Part shown: positions 5,173-35,023 of the stretch, piece after piece
Layout of the letters: every line of letters starts with the position of its first letter
Position numbering within the stretch: the stretch's first letter is position 1
DNA from: Anaerofustis stercorihominis
GTDB taxonomy: Bacteria; Bacillota; Clostridia; Eubacteriales; Anaerofustaceae
Assembly (NCBI RefSeq): GCF_005844425.1
Contig: NZ_SPHL01000019.1
Coordinates: forward strand, 1 to 36,149
Direction: 5' to 3'
Length of the DNA stretch: 36,149 bases
Translations under genes and position numbers: made by a program
Notes under the pieces: model-generated
The model's input: only the letters and a program-made list of their open reading frames with translations
The model's database searches: none
What the model was told of the DNA's origin: nothing

Positions 5173-6123
5173 TTATATAAGTTTTTTTAGTAATTCGTTG
5201 TTAATGAAATAATCATAATCAATTCCGCATTCACCTATAAATCTTGGATTCTCAGAATCTTTTTTATGGTCTCCGTGGAAATCAGACCCGCCTGAGATTA
5301 TTTTTACTTTATCTTTATATGTATTTCTTACTTCGTTTATTATATCTTCTTTTTTCATGTTTCCGGTGTAGCTTGTTTTATCGTAGGTATAACTTGCTTC
5401 TATACCGTCTAAACCGTTTTTAATAAGATTTTCTATATATTCGCTTCTTGATACTTCTTTTCCATCTAAAACCACTTTATCGGCTATTAAGTAAGGATGA
5501 GCAAGAACTATTATACCGCCTGCATCATGAACTATTTTTATTATATCTACAGGATTTGGTTTTCTTCTTCTGACATTTAATCTTTCATCTTTTTTAGAAA
5601 GTTTCTTTGCGTCAGACCATGTTTTTGTATAGCCTTTATCAGCCATTAAGTTAAAAATAAGTTTCTTTTGAAGCTCTTTTTCACTTCTCTGCTGTCCGCC
5701 GTAATTTAGAACTTCATCAAGAGATATTTCATATCCACACTCATTTAATCTATTTAAGAAATCCTTATAGCTTTCTATTTTGCTGTTTGCTATATCTTCC
5801 ATTACTTCCTTAATTTTTTTATCCTCAAAGTCACAGCCATATGCAACCATGTGAACATCATCAACATCAGTATCACATGAAAATTCACAGGCTTTTAATA
5901 AATGTACACCTTTATTTTTTGCATATTCTACACTGTCAACTTCTTTTCCGTCTACTTCTACTGTTTTTGGAGGAAGCATATCATGGTCAGAAATAGTTAA
6001 AACTTTCATTCCTGATTTTGCTGCCAAATCAATAAGTTCCTTTGGTGTGCAAAGTCCATCCGAACGTGTAGTGTGACAATGCATATCACATAAATAATTA
6101 GGTTTAAAATTATAATCACTCAT
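5173..6123 (-). CDS. PHP-domain metal-dependent phosphoesterase
   Basis: The 316-residue protein carries all PHP metal-binding motifs: DMHCHTTRSDG with H15 and H17, ISDHD with D46 and H47, a histidine in DDVHMVAYG near 91, LAHPYLI with H209, and SGGSDFHGDHK with D281 and H283. Members hydrolyse small phosphate esters or nucleotide phosphates (for example 5'-to-3' nucleases and 3',5'-bisnucleotide phosphatases of the TrpH/YciV type). The length matches that stand-alone class, with an insert between residues ~110 and 190. Its ATG lies inside the end of the upstream aldolase gene (8-base overlap), indicating translational coupling. Sitting between two aldolases, it may act on a sugar phosphate, but that is an inference from context. 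Confidence 0.85.
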   Translation of the reverse strand: MSDYNFKPNYLCDMHCHTTRSDGLCTPKELIDLAAKSGMKVLTISDHDMLPPKTVEVDGKEVDSVEYAKNKGVHLLKACEFSCDTDVDDVHMVAYGCDFEDKKIKEVMEDIANSKIESYKDFLNRLNECGYEISLDEVLNYGGQQRSEKELQKKLIFNLMADKGYTKTWSDAKKLSKKDERLNVRRRKPNPVDIIKIVHDAGGIIVLAHPYLIADKVVLDGKEVSRSEYIENLIKNGLDGIEASYTYDKTSYTGNMKKEDIINEVRNTYKDKVKIISGGSDFHGDHKKDSENPRFIGECGIDYDYFINNELLKKLI

Positions 6124-22894: not shown

Positions 22895-23732
22895 TGTGAT
22901 ATTCGTTGCTTTTTTCTTTTAAAATTCTTCCTTCTCTTAAAAGCTGTTCCATTTTATCCATGTCTTCACTTTCAAGAGCTTCTTTATATTCTTCTAATTT
23001 TTCTATTATATTTTCAACCTCGAATAAAAGGGCATCTTTATTCATGATAAAAAGTTCGCTCCACATATATTCGTTTAACTTTGCAACTCTTGTTAAATCA
23101 AGAAAACTTCCCGCAGAAAAGCCTTTCTCTTCCAAAATTGAAGGGCTTTTTACATATGCGTTTGAAACAACGTGTGCAAGCTGAGATGTAAAAGCGATTA
23201 TCTTATCGTGTTCTCTTGGAGTTGATAAAACACATTCTTTAAACTTCATTTGTTTCACAAGCTGTTTTATAATATTTATCTTATCTTTATTTGTATTTTC
23301 CGTTACGGTAACAATAAAACTTGCCCCTTTAAATAAATCTGAAACAGCCGCATCGTATCCCCAAAGTTCTCTTCCTGCCATAGGATGAGCTCCAACATAA
23401 TCTATATTTCTTTTTATCGCTTCAGGTTCAATTTTATTTACTATCTGCTCTTTAACCCCGCATAAGTCCATAAGGGTAGAATGTTCTTTCATTGTTTCCA
23501 TTACTTTAAAAGCAAGGTTAATAGTATTAACAGGATGAAGAGCTATTACAACCATATCCATTTCTTTCATATCATCAATTAAAATAATATCGTCAATTGC
23601 TCCGTCCCTTTTTGCCTTAACCAACGTTTCAGAGTCTATATCATAACCGAAAACTTTATTTGTCGTATATTTCTTTATTGCTTTTGCAAAAGAGGCTCCT
23701 ATAAGCCCAAGTCCCACTACTGCTATGTTCAT
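22881..23732 (-). CDS. tyrA: Prephenate dehydrogenase
   Basis: NAD-dependent oxidative decarboxylation of prephenate to 4-hydroxyphenylpyruvate, toward tyrosine. The 283-residue protein has the Rossmann GLGLIGASFAKAIKK at 7-21, GAHPMAGRELWGYDAAVSDLFKGA and TSQLAHVVSNAYV. It has no ACT or chorismate mutase domain, so it is a stand-alone dehydrogenase. It lies outside the aromatic operon, 11 bases behind a TraB-family gene with which it is probably co-transcribed. No leader-peptide attenuator is seen in front of it. Confidence 0.94.
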   Translation of the reverse strand: MNIAVVGLGLIGASFAKAIKKYTTNKVFGYDIDSETLVKAKRDGAIDDIILIDDMKEMDMVVIALHPVNTINLAFKVMETMKEHSTLMDLCGVKEQIVNKIEPEAIKRNIDYVGAHPMAGRELWGYDAAVSDLFKGASFIVTVTENTNKDKINIIKQLVKQMKFKECVLSTPREHDKIIAFTSQLAHVVSNAYVKSPSILEEKGFSAGSFLDLTRVAKLNEYMWSELFIMNKDALLFEVENIIEKLEEYKEALESEDMDKMEQLLREGRILKEKSNEYHIKKC

Positions 23733-28090: not shown

Positions 28091-28127
28091 AAAAAACAAA
28101 AAAAGAACGCTATAAAACGTTCTTTTT
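28091..28127 (-). terminator. Terminator of the aromatic operon, overlapping the aroK 3' end
   Basis: AAAAAGAACG (5' arm on the minus strand 28118-28127) pairs with CGTTCTTTTT around an eight-base loop that contains the aroK stop codon; a T-rich tract follows. The last codons of aroK form one arm. Confidence 0.85.
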
Positions 28128-28619
28128 ATTTAATTCTTTAATTATGTTTTCTATACAGTATTTAAAATAACCGTTATTGCTTACTTCAATATCACAGTAT
28201 TTTTTATATAAACCAATTCTGTTATTATACAAATTATAAATATGCTCTTCGTTATTTTTTAAAAGTGGTCTGTCCTTACCGAGATTTTTGGATTTTAATA
28301 TATTTTCAACACTTCTGTTTATAAATACTATTATGCTCGTTTGTTTAAAATAATCAATGTTTTCTTTTCTTGTGACTATTCCGCCTCCTGAAGAAATAAG
28401 AGTGGAATTTAATTTTGAAAGCTCTTTTGAATAAAAGGTTTCTATATCTCTAAAACTTTCTTCACCGTCTTTAAATATTTCACTGATTTTTTTGTTTGTC
28501 TTTTCTTCAATGTAATTATCCATATCGATAAAAGTTAAACCAAGCTTACTTGCAAGTTCCTTACCTATACTGCTTTTACCACAGCCCGGCATACCGATTA
28601 ATAAAATATTCTTTTGCAT
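28110..28619 (-). CDS. aroK: Shikimate kinase
   Basis: Phosphorylates shikimate to shikimate 3-phosphate with ATP. The 169-residue protein opens with the Walker A GMPGCGKSSIGK at 9-20 and has FIDMDNYIEEKTNKKISEIF, FRDIETFYSKEL, SSGGGIVTRKEN (shikimate-binding Gly triplet) and the lid segment KDRPLLKNNEE. Size and motifs fit the AroK/AroL family. It is the last gene of the operon, two bases after aroE. Confidence 0.95.
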   Translation of the reverse strand: MQKNILLIGMPGCGKSSIGKELASKLGLTFIDMDNYIEEKTNKKISEIFKDGEESFRDIETFYSKELSKLNSTLISSGGGIVTRKENIDYFKQTSIIVFINRSVENILKSKNLGKDRPLLKNNEEHIYNLYNNRIGLYKKYCDIEVSNNGYFKYCIENIIKELNKKNVL

Positions 28620-28621
28620 TT

Positions 28622-29425
28622 TTATATTTCCTTTTTAAGTTTGGATATAATCTTATTTGTATCTTCTTTTGAAATTACAAAGTCATTCCATATTTCTTCA
28701 GATTTTAAACCTTGCATAATAAGCATTTCAATTCCGCCGCAAGTTTTCTTACCTAAGTTTTCACCTATTTCCATAAACTTTGTTTTTAGCGGATTATAAA
28801 CAACATCAACAACATAATCAAAGTTTTTGATTATATCTTCATTAACAGGAGAAAAATCAACTTTAGGATACATTCCAACAGGTGTTGTATTTATTATTAC
28901 TTGAGCTTTTATTTCTTTTAAATCTTCATAGTCGATTAAATTAACGTCATTTTTTGCTTGTTTATCGCTTTTGTTACGACTTACCAAATAAACTTCTTTT
29001 GCACCTAAATCCTTAACGCAAGAAATAACGGCCTTGCTTGCGCCGCCGCTGCCTAGTATTACAACCCTACTATTATTTATTTCTACATTGTTCACGTTAA
29101 GCTGATACATAAAGCCGTAATAATCGGTATTATATCCGTAAAGTTTTCCATTAACATTTTTTATTGTATTAACGGCACCGATTTTTTCAGCCTCTTCGCT
29201 TATAAAATCCAAACCATCCATAACGGTTCTTTTATAAGGAATAGTTACGTTTATTCCGTCAAGATTATTTTTTTTCATAAAATCTTTTATATTTTGTGCC
29301 GTATCAACATCTATTTCATAAAGCTCATACTCATAGTTTAAATTTAATACATCAAAAGCCGTATTATGCAAAATTTTTGAAAAACTATGAGGTAATTTTT
29401 CACCAATTAAACCAAATTTTTTCAT
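28622..29425 (-). CDS. aroE: Shikimate dehydrogenase
   Basis: NADPH-dependent reduction of 3-dehydroshikimate. The 267-residue protein has IGEKLPHSFSKILHN at the N-terminus (shikimate-binding serines), catalytic K65 in INVTIPYK and D101 in YGYNTDYYGF, the NADP loop VVILGSGGASKAV, VYLVSRNKSD, and a C-terminal GIEMLIMQGLKSEEIW. Two bases separate it from the preceding chorismate mutase gene. Confidence 0.95.
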   Translation of the reverse strand: MKKFGLIGEKLPHSFSKILHNTAFDVLNLNYEYELYEIDVDTAQNIKDFMKKNNLDGINVTIPYKRTVMDGLDFISEEAEKIGAVNTIKNVNGKLYGYNTDYYGFMYQLNVNNVEINNSRVVILGSGGASKAVISCVKDLGAKEVYLVSRNKSDKQAKNDVNLIDYEDLKEIKAQVIINTTPVGMYPKVDFSPVNEDIIKNFDYVVDVVYNPLKTKFMEIGENLGKKTCGGIEMLIMQGLKSEEIWNDFVISKEDTNKIISKLKKEI

Positions 29426-29427
29426 AT

Positions 29428-30345
29428 CTATCCTTTATATGTTCCAAGAATTCTTATATATGGCAAATCACCGTCAAGTCCGTATAACATTTTTAAAACA
29501 TTGCTATCTTGTAAACTGCCGTCAAAATTAATGTAAATCGTAAATTCTTTTCTGTATATATTTGTTTCTTTTGAATCTATTTTATTAATGTGGATATTAT
29601 AATTTGCAAAGTATCTTATTAAATGACTTAATGATTTAGATTTATTGTCGATTTTAACAAGTAAATCTACTTTAGTACAATCTTTGCAGAAATATTTATC
29701 TTTACCAAGAATTATAAATTTGTTTAAATCTTCAAGTTTATCAGATTTATTTTTGTTTATTACGTTTAAGTTATCATCAACAATAAACTTATCTTTTATA
29801 TAAACATTATCATAAGTCTCAAGAAAAGAATACATTTTTGCGATATGCCCGTCTCCGGCATTATCTAAAGCCAAAAAGGCAAAGTCTATTTCCCCGTTTG
29901 AAACAGCTTTTAAAATATCTTCGTATTCTTCAAATTTAATTACTTCAAGGTCTTTTTTAAAATATAAATTCATTGCATCTATTGACAAATGATTTATTTT
30001 ATCTATGTAACCTATCTTATTAGCACTTTCAACCAAATCAATAGTATATTTTTCTTTTATTATGTTTATTGCCTTATCGGCAATTGCTTTTCTTTGAAAA
30101 TTCTTACTTATATCCATAATATGATTGAAAAAGTCGGCAATCTCTTCTGAATAATCTTTGTTTTTAAGATTGTTTATTGCATTTTCAACTACCTGTGCTT
30201 CTCTTTTGGTATTTAATACTTCGATATTATTTTCTTTTTTATACTTCGCCACGTCTACGACAGTATTCATTCTTTCTTCAAAAAGTTTCACTAACTCTTT
30301 ATCTATTTCGTCAATTCTTCTTCTTGATTCTTCCAAACTCTTCAT
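29428..30345 (-). CDS. pheA: Chorismate mutase fused to a degenerate prephenate dehydratase-like region and ACT domain
   Basis: The 305-residue protein begins with an AroQ-type chorismate mutase with active-site residues in place: SRRRIDEIDKELVKLFEERM (residues 7-26), K37, NTKREAQVVENA (R48, E49) and Q84 in NFQRK. From ~100 to 215 follows a region aligned in order with prephenate dehydratase, but altered. The hallmark TRF tripeptide reads N-K-F at 208-210, the ENS element reads D-N-A in ALDNAGDGHI, and the glycine-rich GSFSxxAA entry is IDKINHLSIDAM. An ACT-like tail (220-300) lacks ESRP. It probably makes prephenate; whether it also makes phenylpyruvate is doubtful. The symbol reflects position and domain order, not proven activity. 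Confidence 0.78.
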   Translation of the reverse strand: MKSLEESRRRIDEIDKELVKLFEERMNTVVDVAKYKKENNIEVLNTKREAQVVENAINNLKNKDYSEEIADFFNHIMDISKNFQRKAIADKAINIIKEKYTIDLVESANKIGYIDKINHLSIDAMNLYFKKDLEVIKFEEYEDILKAVSNGEIDFAFLALDNAGDGHIAKMYSFLETYDNVYIKDKFIVDDNLNVINKNKSDKLEDLNKFIILGKDKYFCKDCTKVDLLVKIDNKSKSLSHLIRYFANYNIHINKIDSKETNIYRKEFTIYINFDGSLQDSNVLKMLYGLDGDLPYIRILGTYKG

Positions 30346-30354
30346 ACATAACTC

Positions 30355-31434
30355 CTAATCACATAACAAAAAATCATATAAACAAATTGCACTTGCCGCT
30401 TCTATTACAGGAACAGCTCTTTTTACAATAACGGGATCGTGCCTTCCCACTATTTCCAAACTTGTATTTTCCTTTGTTTCGACATTTATGGTTCTTTGCT
30501 TTCTTGAGATGCTTGCAGTTGGTTTTATTGCAACACTAAAGCATATTGGCTGTCCGTTTGATATTCCTCCCAAAACTCCGCCGTTGTTATTTGTGAAAGT
30601 TTTTACATTGCCATTTTCATCATAATAATATTCATCGTTTGCTTCACTTCCAAACATATCGGCAAAAGCAAAACCTTCACCAAACTCAACACCCTTAACT
30701 GCCGGAACAGAAAATAGGATATGAGCCATTCTTGATTCAATGCTGTCAAAAAACGGAGAACCGATACCTGCCTTAAAACCTATTATACCACATTCGATGA
30801 TTCCTCCAATGCTGTTTTTTTCATTTTTTGCATTTAAAATTACATCTTCCATCTCTTTTTGCCTTGTTTTATCTAAAAGCGGAAATGATTCGTTTTTCAA
30901 TCCAATCAGAATATCTTTGTTTATATTTGTGTAATCGAAACTCAAATCTTCGACTTTGTTTATCTTTTTTATATGTGCACCTATGTATACTCCTTCTTTT
31001 TCTAAAAGTTGTTTTGCAATTGCACCTGCAAAGGTTAAAGAAAGAGTAAGTCTGCCGGAGAAGTTTCCTCCTCCTCTGTAATCATTGCTTCCGTGATGTT
31101 TTACATATGCGGGATAATCTGCATGAGAAGGTCTCATTTTTACTTTAAGCTCGCTGTAATCTTTACTTCTTGTATTGCTGTTTTCAAATATTGCACAAAG
31201 AGGAGAACCTGCTGTTTTATTATCAAAATAACCGCTTATTATCTTTGGAGTATCGGCTTCTTTTCTTGGAGTTGAAAATTTATCGCCCCCTTGTCTTCTT
31301 TTAAGTTCAAAATCTATTTTATCAAAATCAAGGGTTACTCCTGCTGGAATTCCGTCAATAACAACGCCGATTGCTTCGCTGTGAGACTGCCCGAATATAG
31401 TTACTTTAAATTTATTTCCAAATGTCGCACTCAT
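30355..31434 (-). CDS. aroC: Chorismate synthase
   Basis: Converts 5-enolpyruvylshikimate 3-phosphate to chorismate using reduced FMN. The 359-residue protein has GQSHSEAIGVVIDGIPAG, KRRQGGDKFSTPRKEADTP, RPSHADYPAYVKHHGSNDYRGGGNFSGR, GGVLGGISNGQPI and RHDPVIVKRAVPVIEAA, the complete family signature set. Its ATG lies 23 bases inside the end of aroA, so the two are translationally coupled. Confidence 0.97.
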   Translation of the reverse strand: MSATFGNKFKVTIFGQSHSEAIGVVIDGIPAGVTLDFDKIDFELKRRQGGDKFSTPRKEADTPKIISGYFDNKTAGSPLCAIFENSNTRSKDYSELKVKMRPSHADYPAYVKHHGSNDYRGGGNFSGRLTLSLTFAGAIAKQLLEKEGVYIGAHIKKINKVEDLSFDYTNINKDILIGLKNESFPLLDKTRQKEMEDVILNAKNEKNSIGGIIECGIIGFKAGIGSPFFDSIESRMAHILFSVPAVKGVEFGEGFAFADMFGSEANDEYYYDENGNVKTFTNNNGGVLGGISNGQPICFSVAIKPTASISRKQRTINVETKENTSLEIVGRHDPVIVKRAVPVIEAASAICLYDFLLCD

Positions 31435-32650
31435 TTATTTCTCCTCCAAGTTTCTTAAAGTCTTCATAAAAATGCGGATAAGATTTTTTAACACACATAT
31501 AATCTTTTATTATGATATCATCTTTGCATCTGCTTGATGCAATGGCAAGACTCATTGAAATTCTATGGTCTTTGAAAGAATCAACATATCCTCCATTTAA
31601 AGAATCAACACCGTTTATTGTAAGGCTTTCTTCATGTTCTATAATATCAGCACCAAGTTTATTTAACTGAGTTGAAATTGCAGTTAGTCTGTCACATTCC
31701 TTTATTCTAAGTCTTCCTGCATTTATAATTTCAGTTTTCCCTTTAGTTAAAGCTGCACACACCGTAAGGATAGGAATAATATCAGGGCAGTTTGCTGCGT
31801 CAATCACTTTGTTTTCATCATTTTTAAGTACTTCAAGCCATTTTAATATTTCTTTATCACCTTGAAGAGAATTTTCATCAAGACCTTTTATGTCTATATC
31901 ATTACCAATATAGTTCGCACTAAGGAAGAATGCTGCCTGGGAATAGTCTCCTTCAACGGTATAATCCATTGCCTTATATTCCTGGTTTCCTTTTATTATA
32001 AATTCTTTATAGTCCTTATTTTCAATTTCTATACCGAATTTTTCAAGCATTGAAAGAGTCAAATCCAAATAACTTTTTGATTCAAGTTTTGAAATTATTA
32101 CAATTTTGCTATCATCATTTAAAAGAGGAAGAGCAAAAAGAAGTCCGGTTATAAACTGAGAGCTTATGTCTCCTCTTACATAAAATGTATCAGCTTTTAA
32201 TTTTCCCTCTACTTGCAAATCCAAAATATCTTTTTTATAAGAATATTTTATTCCTTGTTTGTCAAATATTTCGTAAAAAACATTAAGAGGTCTTTTGCCT
32301 AAGTTTCCTTTACCGATAAAAGTCTTTTTTTGATTAAGAAGCATTGTTATTGGAACGAAAAATCTTAAAGTAGAGCCTGACTCGTTACAGTCCACTATAA
32401 AATCTTCATTGTTTGGAGACGATAAAATCCCCTCTACCGCTACTTTTCTATTATCTATTTCTATTTTTGCTCCCATGCTTCTTGCTGCGTTTATGGTTGC
32501 TATTATATCATCGGATAAGTCTATATTATCTATTATAGACTTACCCTTTGAAAGAGCAGCACATATAATTGCCCTGTGAGCCATGCTTTTTGAAGGAGGA
32601 ACAACTACTTCCCCTGATAATTTTCTTGGTTTAATTAAAATATTGTCCAT
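31412..32650 (-). CDS. aroA: 5-enolpyruvylshikimate-3-phosphate synthase
   Basis: Transfers enolpyruvyl from PEP to shikimate 3-phosphate. The 412-residue protein has VVPPSKSMAHRAIICAAL (K21, S22, R26 region), DCNESGSTLRFFVPI, GDISSQFITGLLFALP, VEGDYSQAAFFLSA, RLRIKECDRLTAI and SFKDHRISMSLAIA. Relative to the family, the usual N-G-T-x-x-R loop is replaced by N-E-S-G-S-T-L-R, as is frequent in class II synthases. It adjoins aroB with no gap. Confidence 0.95.
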   Translation of the reverse strand: MDNILIKPRKLSGEVVVPPSKSMAHRAIICAALSKGKSIIDNIDLSDDIIATINAARSMGAKIEIDNRKVAVEGILSSPNNEDFIVDCNESGSTLRFFVPITMLLNQKKTFIGKGNLGKRPLNVFYEIFDKQGIKYSYKKDILDLQVEGKLKADTFYVRGDISSQFITGLLFALPLLNDDSKIVIISKLESKSYLDLTLSMLEKFGIEIENKDYKEFIIKGNQEYKAMDYTVEGDYSQAAFFLSANYIGNDIDIKGLDENSLQGDKEILKWLEVLKNDENKVIDAANCPDIIPILTVCAALTKGKTEIINAGRLRIKECDRLTAISTQLNKLGADIIEHEESLTINGVDSLNGGYVDSFKDHRISMSLAIASSRCKDDIIIKDYMCVKKSYPHFYEDFKKLGGEINECDIWK

Positions 32651-33712
32651 TTACTCATCCTTAAAAAATTGTGTATTTGTCTTATGTATATAACATTTTC
32701 CTATTTCATTTAAAAGAATTACGTTTAAAACTTTTCCTTCGTTTTTCTTGTCGGTAGAAATATGAGAAAGAATACTGTCATTATTTATTGCCCCGATATC
32801 GTATTCCATATCAAAGTTAATTAAAATATCTTTTATTTTATCGCTTACGCCTTTAGGTGTAAGACCAAGTTTTTCACTGTGTTTTGTTATTTCATACATT
32901 CCAATCCCCACAGCTTCACCATGAGTATATTTTTCATAGTTAAAGTGAGCTTCTATTCCATGAGCAAGAGTATGACCAAAATTAAGCTTCATTCTCTCCC
33001 CTGTATCTTTTTCATCTTCTTCAACTACAATTCTCTTTAAATTACAGCTTGTGTATACTATATGTTCTATATTATCAAGTATATCTTCTTTTGTTTTAAG
33101 ATTATATAAAAATTCAAAGAAATCTTTATCAAATATAAGACCGTATTTTATTACCTCAGCCAAACCGTCTTTTATGTTTCTAAGGGACAAAGTTGTTAAG
33201 ACATTTGTATCAATAAGCACAAGCTTTGGTTGATGAAAACTTCCAACTAAGTTTTTGCCTTTTTTAAGGTCTATTGCAACTTTTCCACCAACAGAACTAT
33301 CTACTTGAGATAAAAGAGTTGTAGGAATTTGAATAAAACCAACTCCTCTTAGAAATGTAGATGCAACAAAACCGCCAAGGTCACCTATAACTCCGCCCCC
33401 CAAAGTTATAATCATGTCTTTTCTAGTCATGTTAAAATCAATAAGAGCATTATATATAGGTTCAAGAGATTCTATGGATTTTGTTTTCTCTCCGTTTGGA
33501 AGAATTATATAATCAACATTAAAACCTCCGTCTTTAAGGTTATTTATAACTTTATCAAGATAAAATCTTGCAACTATATCGTCGGTTATAATAAATAGTT
33601 TTTCTCCCTTATATACTTTTTTTATTTCTTCTGATAATGATTTTAAAATACCTTCTTTAATAATAATATCGTAAGATTTTTCATTAAGATTTACATGAAT
33701 TTTCTTAGCCAT
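32651..33712 (-). CDS. aroB: 3-dehydroquinate synthase
   Basis: Zinc- and NAD-dependent cyclisation of DAHP to 3-dehydroquinate. The 353-residue protein has LPNGEKTKSIE, ITLGGGVIGDLGGFVASTFLRG, QIPTTLLSQVDSSVGGKVAID, NLVGSFHQPKLVLID, ERMKLNFGHTLAHGIEA and YTHGEAVGIGM, with zinc ligands in the last two. I use the ATG at 33712, where AAGGAAAAAATT precedes MAKKIHVNL; the frame extends 13 codons into the end of aroF without a ribosome site. The gap to aroF is 10 bases. Confidence 0.96.
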   Translation of the reverse strand: MAKKIHVNLNEKSYDIIIKEGILKSLSEEIKKVYKGEKLFIITDDIVARFYLDKVINNLKDGGFNVDYIILPNGEKTKSIESLEPIYNALIDFNMTRKDMIITLGGGVIGDLGGFVASTFLRGVGFIQIPTTLLSQVDSSVGGKVAIDLKKGKNLVGSFHQPKLVLIDTNVLTTLSLRNIKDGLAEVIKYGLIFDKDFFEFLYNLKTKEDILDNIEHIVYTSCNLKRIVVEEDEKDTGERMKLNFGHTLAHGIEAHFNYEKYTHGEAVGIGMYEITKHSEKLGLTPKGVSDKIKDILINFDMEYDIGAINNDSILSHISTDKKNEGKVLNVILLNEIGKCYIHKTNTQFFKDE

Positions 33713-33722
33713 AATTTTTTCC

Positions 33723-34736
33723 TTATAGAGTTCTTCCAACGATTGGAGCAAGTTTTCTTAAATCTGTCATTAAATCGTCGAATGCTTCAGGTTTTAGAGA
33801 TTGTTGTCCGTCACATAAAGCGTTTAATGGATCGTTATGAACTTCGATAATAAGTCCGTCTGCACCTGCAACGATTGCTGCTTTAGCTAAAGATTCAACC
33901 ATCCACCATTTACCTGTTGCGTGTGATGGATCAATGATAATTGGTAAGTGGCTTAATTTTTTGATTGCTGGAATTGCGCTTAAATCAAGAGTATTTCTTG
34001 TGTATGTTTCAAATGTTCTAATACCTCTTTCACAAAGGATAACATTTTCGTTTCCGCCTGCCATAATGTATTCAGCTGACATTAGAAGTTCTTCGATTGT
34101 TGCACTTAAACCTCTTTTTAAAAGAATAGGTTTTCTGATTTTACCAAGTTCTTTTAATAAATCGAAGTTTTGCATATTTCTTGCACCGATTTGGATTACA
34201 TCAACATCTTCAACGAATTTTTCAAGGTCGTTTGTAGACATTAATTCAGTAACGATTGGAAGTCCTGTTTCTTTTCTTGCTTCTTTTAAAAGTTCAAGTC
34301 CATCGTATCCTAGACCTTGGAAAGCGTATGGGGAAGTTCTTGGTTTGAAAGCACCGCCTCTTAAGAAATTTGCACCTGAAGCTTTTACATCTTTTGCAAC
34401 TTGTGTAATTTGTTCTCTTGTTTCAACTGAACAAGGTCCTGCGATAATTGCAAGTTTTTCACCACCTATAACTTGGTTTCCAACTTTAATTTCGCTGTCG
34501 TTTGGGTGGAACATTCTGTTTGCTTTTTTGTAAGGTTCTTCAACATGTAAAACTCTTCTTACGATTGAGTTTGCTTCAAGTGTTTTTGCATCTAAAACAG
34601 ATGTATCACCTACTAAACCAAGTACAGTAAGTTCTTCTCCTTCGATTGGTTGGATTTTTAAATTTTTGCTTTCGATTTGAGCAACCAATTTGGCTACTTC
34701 AAGTTTGTCTGAGTTGGGTTGTAATACTACTATCAT
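33723..34736 (-). CDS. aroF: DAHP synthase, type I-beta with N-terminal regulatory domain
   Basis: First committed step of the shikimate pathway, joining PEP and erythrose 4-phosphate. The 337-residue protein has an N-terminal ferredoxin-like domain of ~70 residues (MIVVLQPNSDKLEVAKLVAQ) of the type that mediates feedback control by Phe/Tyr in Thermotoga. The barrel then shows IIAGPCSVETREQ, RGGAFKPRTSPYAFQGLG, VIQIGARNMQNFDLL, LLKRGLSATIEE and IIDPSHATGKW. It is the first gene of the operon, about 35 bases beyond an attenuator terminator, and so is controlled both by transcription attenuation and probably allosterically. Confidence 0.97.
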   Translation of the reverse strand: MIVVLQPNSDKLEVAKLVAQIESKNLKIQPIEGEELTVLGLVGDTSVLDAKTLEANSIVRRVLHVEEPYKKANRMFHPNDSEIKVGNQVIGGEKLAIIAGPCSVETREQITQVAKDVKASGANFLRGGAFKPRTSPYAFQGLGYDGLELLKEARKETGLPIVTELMSTNDLEKFVEDVDVIQIGARNMQNFDLLKELGKIRKPILLKRGLSATIEELLMSAEYIMAGGNENVILCERGIRTFETYTRNTLDLSAIPAIKKLSHLPIIIDPSHATGKWWMVESLAKAAIVAGADGLIIEVHNDPLNALCDGQQSLKPEAFDDLMTDLRKLAPIVGRTL

Positions 34737-34772
34737 TTTGATTTTCTCCTTTAAGTTAATTTTTTAGTTTTG

Positions 34773-34808
34773 TAAAATAAAAAAGGGAACTCCTTTTAAT
34801 GAGTTCCC
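34773..34808 (-). terminator. Attenuator terminator in the aro operon leader
   Basis: On the minus strand GGGAACTC (34801-34808) pairs with GAGTTCCC (34785-34792) across an eight-base loop, followed by TTTTTTATTTT. It lies between the leader-peptide stop codon and the aroF ribosome site, where it would stop transcription before the operon. Confidence 0.92.
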
Positions 34809-34864
34809 CAAATTCTTTACTTTGCGTTTTTTAAATACATTTAAAGATTATACTCACTAAAAGG
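34792..34864 (-). promoter_or_regulatory. Antiterminator pairing competing with the aro attenuator
   Basis: The leader RNA segment CCUUUUAGUGAGU (34852-34864), within the last codons of the leader peptide, can pair with ACUCAUUAAAAGG (34792-34804) over 13 pairs with one G-U. The second segment includes the upper half of the terminator 5' arm, its loop and the first base of the 3' arm, so the two structures exclude each other. A ribosome finishing at the leader stop codon would cover the first segment; one stalled at the Phe/Tyr cluster would leave it free. Confidence 0.75.
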
Positions 34865-34963
34865 CTTATCTGTACGTGAAAAAGAACCTGCAAAGAAATA
34901 AAAGTTTGCAAAGCTAAAATAGTTATAAAATTTAAAGCTATTTAGTTCTCTTAAACCTTTCAT
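34841..34963 (-). CDS. Phe/Tyr-rich leader peptide of the aromatic operon
   Basis: A 40-codon frame opens at an ATG preceded by AAAGGAGAAG. It encodes nine Phe and four Tyr. Residues 10-24 alone hold seven Phe and three Tyr in the order F-K-F-Y-N-Y-F-S-F-A-N-F-Y-F-F. The peptide has no signal, domain or recognisable family, and its promoter, frame and following terminator have the layout of a regulatory leader such as pheL. Its role would be to measure charged tRNA-Phe and tRNA-Tyr by ribosome stalling. The frame also extends upstream of this ATG, but the RNA probably starts only about 25 bases before it. A seven-codon frame (ATG at 34840) begins directly after the stop codon and could allow re-initiation. 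Confidence 0.9.
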   Translation of the reverse strand: MKGLRELNSFKFYNYFSFANFYFFAGSFSRTDKPFSEYNL

Positions 34964-34994
34964 TTTAATCTTCTCCTTTGTATTCTTGTTTGAT

Positions 34995-35023
34995 ATAATA
35001 CACTTATTGTTTTTAATTGTCAA
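34995..35023 (-). promoter_or_regulatory. Sigma-A promoter of the aromatic operon
   Basis: On the minus strand a perfect TTGACA (35018-35023) and TATTAT (34995-35000) are separated by 17 bases. Transcription should begin near 34988, giving a ~250-base leader before aroF that includes the leader peptide and terminator. Confidence 0.88.

Follow-up and report, generated by a model that had tools for sequence, protein, structure and literature searches.

The window analysed here, the whole 36,149-nucleotide stretch of Anaerofustis stercorihominis DNA, carries on its minus strand seven aromatic-pathway genes that overlap or stand no more than 10 nt apart. They are, from aroF to aroK, aroF (33723-34736), encoding a DAHP synthase with a ferredoxin-like domain (Pfam DAHP_synth_1 and DAHP_snth_FXD); aroB, 3-dehydroquinate synthase (32651-33751); aroA, EPSP synthase (31412-32650); aroC, chorismate synthase (30355-31434); a gene for a chorismate mutase with a partial prephenate dehydratase (PDT) domain (29428-30345); aroE, shikimate dehydrogenase (28622-29425); and aroK, shikimate kinase (28110-28619), with aroB, aroA, aroC, aroE and aroK likewise assigned by Pfam. 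All seven are presumably co-transcribed. The chorismate mutase protein has a full CM_2 domain and only positions 13-90 of the 181 positions of the PDT domain, and this remnant may since have taken on the role of a regulatory domain. A full PDT gene is found at another site of the same genome (G000:C85), and a prephenate dehydrogenase domain is encoded at 23241-23690 of the window.

The region 5' of aroF has the layout of a regulatory leader on the same strand. It begins with a promoter (34995-35023) that agrees with 11 of 12 consensus positions: TTGACA (35023-35018), a 17-nt spacer and TATTAT (35000-34995). Inspection of the sequence shows a ribosome binding site, AGGAG (34973-34977), followed by an open reading frame (34841-34963; ATG 34963-34961, TAA 34843-34841) for a 40-residue peptide, MKGLRELNSFKFYNYFSFANFYFFAGSFSRTDKPFSEYNL, that contains 9 Phe, 4 Tyr and no Trp. 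Ten of its aromatic residues fall within residues 10-24. Codons 2-7 of this frame (34945-34960, segment 1) pair in the minimum free energy fold with a stretch 3' of the aromatic run, and within the run itself lies a 6-bp hairpin, UGCAAA/UUUGCA (34889-34910), referred to below as H. Close to the end of the frame is the 5' strand of a candidate antiterminator, CCUUUUAGUGAGU (34852-34864, segment 2), whose 3' strand, ACUCAUUAAAAGG (34792-34804, segment 3), overlaps the 5' arm, the loop and the beginning of the 3' arm of an intrinsic terminator (34776-34809; stem 34809-34784 plus a T tail). The ribosome binding site of aroF, AGGAG (34746-34750), was likewise recognized by inspection. A preliminary description of this DNA had listed the promoter, ribosome binding site, 40-codon frame, stop codon, terminator and aroF ribosome binding site; each was found in its place, and our recount of the aromatic residues at positions 10-24 gave the same ten.

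Both further genomes located within the genus retain the aromatic codons, promoter and terminator: G001 keeps the promoter pair, and in G002 the pair recurs with a single changed position in its -10 box. Promoter-like sites are rarer than chance across the whole region (9, versus 15.5 in its own shuffles). In G002 (locus L002) a 1-nt insertion beside an A run turns the leader ATG into ATAG, which may be a sequencing error next to the A run or may mark a leader without a start.

Frames this rich in aromatic residues seldom arise by chance at this site. When the 400 nt 5' of aroF were dinucleotide-shuffled and frames of 15-75 amino acids were scanned with a 16-residue window, only 1 of 3000 shuffles gave 10 or more aromatic residues per 16. 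The preliminary description had suggested looking for short Phe/Tyr-rich frames 5' of aroF in relatives, and such frames proved to be common. A search of 101 genomes located AroF in 81, with the window's genome counted, and further named aroF loci were taken as the best 80 of at least 586 matches in the genome collection; after L041 and L125 were dropped beforehand, 148 usable upstream regions were available. An aromatic frame, defined by a threshold set after a first look as 8 or more aromatic residues per 16, is present in 88 of the 148 regions, versus 3 on the antisense strand and a mean of 1.4 in shuffles; the 148 include many close relatives (17 from genus g10), and these counts are not counts of independent events. 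Weaker leaders may be present in some of the 60 regions that miss this threshold. Bearers known by name are, among others, Clostridium chromiireducens, C. tetanomorphum, C. homopropionicum and Clostridioides difficile CD160, together with Pelosinus fermentans, Sporomusa acidovorans and Megasphaera sp. NM10, which we take to be Negativicutes.

The leaders start with ATG in 84 of 88 cases (GTG in 3, TTG in 1). All 88 contain both Phe and Tyr, with 528 Phe and 429 Tyr altogether, and Tyr-rich runs occur in some relatives. This codon content fits the combined Phe and Tyr sensor that had been proposed; the restriction to these two amino acids fits the window, whose peptide has no Trp, but does not extend to the relatives, since Trp codons are additionally present in 56 of the 88 leaders. 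Terminators conserved in relatives that lack aromatic enrichment, which had been named beforehand as evidence against attenuation, are not the pattern observed: a script called a terminator-like stem in 85 of the 88 aromatic-frame regions (in three of these the stem is actually H), and also in 30 of the other 60, T-box loci included.

The sensor codons appear to be maintained as codons. Genus g10 (family f3) contributes 16 loci, among which 289 aromatic-codon pairs differ; of these, 201 are synonymous, 56 lead to another aromatic residue and 32 to a non-aromatic one, so that 257 of the 289 remain aromatic. Differences are concentrated at third positions (0.184, versus 0.094 and 0.103 at the other two). 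Because only 2 of the 9 single changes of TTT retain an aromatic residue, this degree of retention reflects coding constraint. The other groups are smaller or noisier than g10, and group names of the type Acetobacterium-like are guesses. Synonymous, other aromatic and non-aromatic changes number 22, 4 and 4 in g22; 24, 28 and 32 in an Oscillibacter-like group; 6, 8 and 8 in f5; 0, 2 and 0 in the window's genus; and 150, 214 and 387 in a Clostridium-like group of 16 loci, where the alignment is uncertain and the position differences are 0.305, 0.331 and 0.372. By eye, the sequence GTACAA after the GYF codons seems conserved between L010, L012, L006 and L008 on the one hand and L018 and L021 on the other, with the reading frame at this site shifted by 1 base between the two groups; a role at the RNA level is possible.

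In the window, the alternative pairings of the leader are modest. Segments 2 and 3 form 13 contiguous pairs, one of them G-U, with a duplex energy matched by 24 of 1000 shuffles, and the duplex of segments 1 and 2 is matched by 29 of 1000. The same tests were applied to 82 loci with aromatic frames, leaving out L091, L099 and L100, where the terminator called by the script is H. In 51 of the 82 loci the 1:2 pairing is as good as or better than 95 of its 100 shuffles, and in 31 (32 in other runs) this holds for the 2:3 pairing; only 15 of the 82 have both at this level with 4 or more bases of segment 2 in common. Many Clostridium loci have in common (U)AAUGAGU as segment 2 and ACUCAUU(A) as segment 3, and others, among them the spirochaete loci L118 and L129, achieve an equally good 2:3 pairing with unrelated letters. 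The pairings are not uniform: in L003, of the same genus as the window, the 1:2 duplex is at chance level, being equalled by 278 of 1000 shuffles, and in genus g10 the 2:3 duplex is mostly at the shuffle level. Of the 32 loci in which 2:3 pairing is strong, 31 (a count made without a control) have a 5' strand that begins before the leader stop or within the 12 nt after it, where a ribosome completing the frame would cover it.

Folding of the window leader with a masked ribosome, at a stage when the 3' arm of the terminator has not yet been made, predicts a sharp change near the end of the frame. The probability of the antiterminator is 0.96-0.99 for ribosome positions through codon 29, falls to 0.82, 0.60 and 0.29 at codons 30, 31 and 32, and lies at 0.00-0.01 between codon 33 and the stop. 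Without a ribosome, before synthesis of the terminator 3' arm, it is still at 0.99. In the full transcript the terminator prevails at nearly all ribosome positions, and the antiterminator is ahead at codon 29 only; kinetics, which lie outside the fold model, must therefore decide the switch. RNAalifold applied to two alignments, A2 (17 sequences) and A3 (9 sequences), did not return the 1:2 and 2:3 helices as drawn, so these helices rest on the duplex tests. What it returned for A2 was H, the terminator, a long-range helix and two small hairpins, with a covariation term of only -1.38; for A3 it returned H, an invariant helix around H and the terminator, with a term of -0.52. In A2, which represents genus g10, columns 39-45 pair with columns 148-154, joining the region of the leader ribosome binding site to a stretch 3' of the aromatic run, and in this model the helix would hide the leader start in untranslated RNA.

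Hairpin H lies inside the sensor codons. An example is CUGG-G-GCUAU-UUUU-AUGGC-G-CUGG, located within the aromatic run; a central G.G mismatch of this kind is present in 31 of the 85 best hairpins. In a recoding test of 68 loci (17 of the 85 were dropped because no aroF sequence was available for them or they contained unread bases), the aromatic segment of 50 loci surpasses 190 or more of its 200 synonymous recodings in stability, with a mean z of -2.44. No such excess is seen at the spirochaete loci L118, L124 and L129. Codon choice is also skewed: AGC accounts for 99 of the 115 Ser codons in the aromatic segments, versus 284 of 1243 in the aroF genes. In an alignment of H from 20 leaders, 93.1% of cells pair, versus 87.7% in shuffles; 6 of the 11 pairs are changed on both sides, and the covariation score of 0.401 was reached by none of 500 shuffles. 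Sliding the structure by -1 also gave 6 two-sided pairs, but the score was 0.122 and the paired fraction only 37.3% of cells; this control is partly circular in that the structure was derived from the same sequences. In the window, where only the reduced 6-bp hairpin is retained at the position of H, the aromatic segment is equalled or surpassed in stability by 5 of its 200 synonymous recodings.

A covariance model of H trained on aroF leaders (R1) was used to search more widely. Against 87 non-training sources (502 kb), some of them near kin of the training sequences, it gave 28 matches with E up to 1 in 26 sources. Twenty-six of the 28 mark candidate leaders, one belonging to a chorismate mutase-shikimate kinase fusion and the rest to aroF; the other two are on the opposite strand in Pelosinus, and the one inspected precedes a shikimate kinase gene. 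None of the 28 falls on the window or on L003, and R1 has no match anywhere in the window's genome. Two genome scans followed the same model under strict filters, with gene identities assigned by position or Pfam. Over 198 related genomes there are 35 matches with E<=0.05, comprising 25 leaders of aromatic genes (22 of aroF and one each of a chorismate mutase-shikimate kinase fusion, pheA and aroB), 9 sites that the surrounding frames show to be something else and 1 uninspected match; 20 of the 21 matches with E<0.001 are aromatic leaders, versus only 5 of the remaining 14 (one uninspected). Over 398 genomes of the phylum there are 14 matches with E<=0.002, namely 7 at aroF (1 repeated from the 198-genome scan), 1 at a gene for an ACT-domain pair and 6 by chance; the 6 best are all aromatic leaders, followed by 2 of the other 8. 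The weaker R1 matches mingle with chance matches inside genes.

Leaders of this kind also stand, in single cases, in front of genes other than aroF, at L174:1501-1611 (minus strand), L207, L212, L091 (minus strand, about 5944-6081) and L232, where the genes behind them are a chorismate mutase-shikimate kinase fusion, pheA, aroB, aroK and an ACT-domain gene, respectively. The genome with the leader before aroB (G006, E 0.004) is of the same taxonomic family as that of the window. A peptide profile, A1, of which the window peptide is itself a row, has one strong copy in the window's genome (E 1.3e-9) and matches with E<=0.05 in 33 of 61 genomes, including a few further weak matches elsewhere. 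The next A1 match in the window's genome (E 0.2) was set aside as a second leader; it is antisense inside a gene that by eye resembles one for an acetyltransferase.

Comparison with Rfam 15, which had been suggested as a check for an existing family, gave no match at the gathering level at the window leader or at the loci of 19 relatives. The T-box model (RF00230) does not match the window leader at its gathering score, and the three T-boxes of the window's genome that pass the cut-off are all elsewhere. Two further candidates at the window leader are at chance level: Phe_leader (RF01859; 16.7 bits versus a gathering score of 55, E 4.7) and the trpB-motif (E 3.3). T-boxes do exceed the gathering score in 6 of 20 aroF loci from the 60 sub-threshold regions that were compared with Rfam (L048, L058, L064, L068, L114 and L122). 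T-box and leader peptide seem to replace each other at aroF.

As in an attenuator, the window combines a frame rich in codons for the end products, a terminator before the first gene and a mutually exclusive antiterminator near the leader stop. On these features and the comparison with relatives, we consider it probable, at roughly 0.87, that the window encodes a ribosome-mediated transcription attenuator with the logic of pheL and trpL. The preliminary description had proposed such translation-coupled control, and the retained aromatic codons, the alternative pairings, the terminator and the similar leaders before other aromatic genes all support it; stalling of the ribosome, and a response to starvation for each of the amino acids, are what we infer from them. 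RNA polymerase would transcribe the leader while a ribosome translates the 40-codon frame. With ample Phe-tRNA and Tyr-tRNA, the ribosome would reach the last codons or the stop and cover segment 2, leaving segment 3 free to form the terminator, and transcription would stop before aroF. When Phe-tRNA, Tyr-tRNA or both are short, it would stall in codons 10-24 and leave segment 2 exposed; segment 2 would then pair with segment 3, the terminator would not form, and aroF, aroB, aroA, aroC, the chorismate mutase gene, aroE and aroK would be transcribed. Segment 1, which pairs with the segment 2 region, may keep an untranslated leader switched off.

Several other readings of the locus can be weighed against this one. 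An RNA sensor, riboswitch-like or T-box-like, in which the short frame is incidental or secondary, would account for the stability excess of H in 50 of 68 loci and for its covariation, and could accommodate both the seeming conservation of GTACAA across a frame shift and the loss of the leader ATG in G002. Such a sensor would not be expected to preserve aromatic codons in g10 mainly through synonymous changes or exchanges for other aromatics, nor to carry ATG at 84 of 88 frames and codons that suit the genes controlled; together with the lack of a gathering-level Rfam match at the window and the 19 relatives' loci, this makes it quite improbable. Alternatively, the nascent peptide could itself cause arrest by sensing free aromatic amino acids inside the ribosome, through a motif of the form ...WGFYFSAGYF..C that recurs in several families. 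Much of this motif is encoded by the arms of H and of the 1:2 stem, and since its codons form helix arms and H covaries, RNA pairing can explain the motif; the window peptide moreover keeps only YFFAG of it. For an arrest peptide we see very little probability, and GYFAC was set aside as an arrest motif, as many of its codons are RNA helix arms.

That the frame is a chance one, or the gene of a small membrane protein, beside an ordinary terminator is hardly credible. Phe/Tyr-rich frames do arise in T-rich DNA, as the antisense second-best A1 match in the genome illustrates, but chance would explain neither their recurrence before aroF and other aromatic genes, nor their placement relative to the terminator, nor the pairings. 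A special case of the attenuator is that it works through Phe-tRNA alone and the Tyr codons are passengers. The window, with 9 Phe versus 4 Tyr, leans in this direction, and AroR is reported in a review to respond to Phe but not Tyr (PMC11802643). Against this stand the occurrence of both residues in every one of the 88 leaders, with totals of 528 Phe and 429 Tyr, and the Tyr-rich runs of some relatives, and we regard control by Phe-tRNA alone as rather unlikely.

Accounts of how clostridia regulate their amino acid genes usually centre on T-boxes and TRAP-like control. In the T-box, control is tRNA-dependent and the tRNA is read directly, without a leader peptide; it does the same job as the leader before aroF in other loci and is absent at the window site. 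The proteobacterial pheL leader (Phe_leader) has Phe codons, a terminator and an antiterminator, and its logic is the same as that of the window, although the RF01859 model is not matched. An AroR leader before aroF of C. glutamicum was reportedly described by Neshat et al. in 2014. The preliminary description knew of no example of this exact arrangement; AroR, uORFC-13-1 and two Phe/Tyr shikimate uORFs are precedents. AroR is described in a review as a Phe-Tyr-Phe leader peptide before an operon with a DAHP synthase gene, at which ribosome stalling increases transcription under Phe limitation (PMC11802643). It is like the window in placing an aromatic leader peptide before a DAHP synthase operon, and differs in being actinobacterial and in having three named sensor residues, whereas the window has 13 aromatic residues. 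The uORFC-13-1 motif, as far as the accessible text of its report goes, also precedes aroF and comprises 24 sequences from Acholeplasma and environmental sources only (PMC8632094). Going by that description, the sole basis of the comparison, it shares with the window a uORF with Phe codon(s), a promoter, a ribosome binding site and a terminator before aroF, and has an extra base-paired substructure (PMC8632094).

According to the legend of their Fig. 6b, Stav et al. (2019) gave structure models for two candidate uORFs with F and Y that are associated with shikimate metabolism genes (PMC6429828). Because Clostridium novyi is among the five genomes surveyed there (PMC6429828), these uORFs, compared through the legend, may belong to the same family as the clostridial leaders. 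Ribosome-mediated attenuators have also been proposed in other Firmicutes, C. difficile and its relatives included, for other amino acids and genes: a Leu leader peptide at ilv of S. aureus (PMC5794164), His leaders in the B. cereus group, Peptostreptococcaceae and Erysipelotrichales (PMC9413887), and leader-peptide attenuators of bacillar hisS/hisZ (PMC2965389). The clostridial aroF leader is a widespread member of an already known type of regulator. Among the open-access full texts covered, none surfaced that describes a clostridial aromatic leader family by name, and aroF is absent from the main text of a 2024 survey of 50 genomes (PMC11109978). What may be new is the breadth of its distribution, the Trp codons of the relatives, the reuse before other aromatic genes and the location of H inside the sensor codons.

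More tentatively, and at somewhat less than even odds, the leaders could be a distinct RNA family, without a gathering match in Rfam 15 at those compared, that controls an aromatic regulon in Clostridia, Negativicutes and perhaps some spirochaetes. Its peptides would contain Phe, Tyr and often Trp; the covarying H, nested in the 1:2 stem, would be a timing device that acts through polymerase pausing or a barrier opened solely by a ribosome in motion; and the whole leader would have been exchanged with T-boxes in evolution. If the attenuator reading is true, entry into the shikimate pathway in many anaerobes would be set by the speed of translation at Phe/Tyr(/Trp) codons, and the conserved small frames before aromatic genes would be explained. 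Leaders are also carried by metagenome-assembled genomes labelled Treponema and Spirochaetaceae. One of these, L119, is on a contig that may be misbinned, because its leader is nearly identical to that of Clostridium lacusfryxellense (L132). In both L119 and L132 the sequence of a terminator arm is duplicated just 5' of the terminator, an arrangement resembling tandem terminators.
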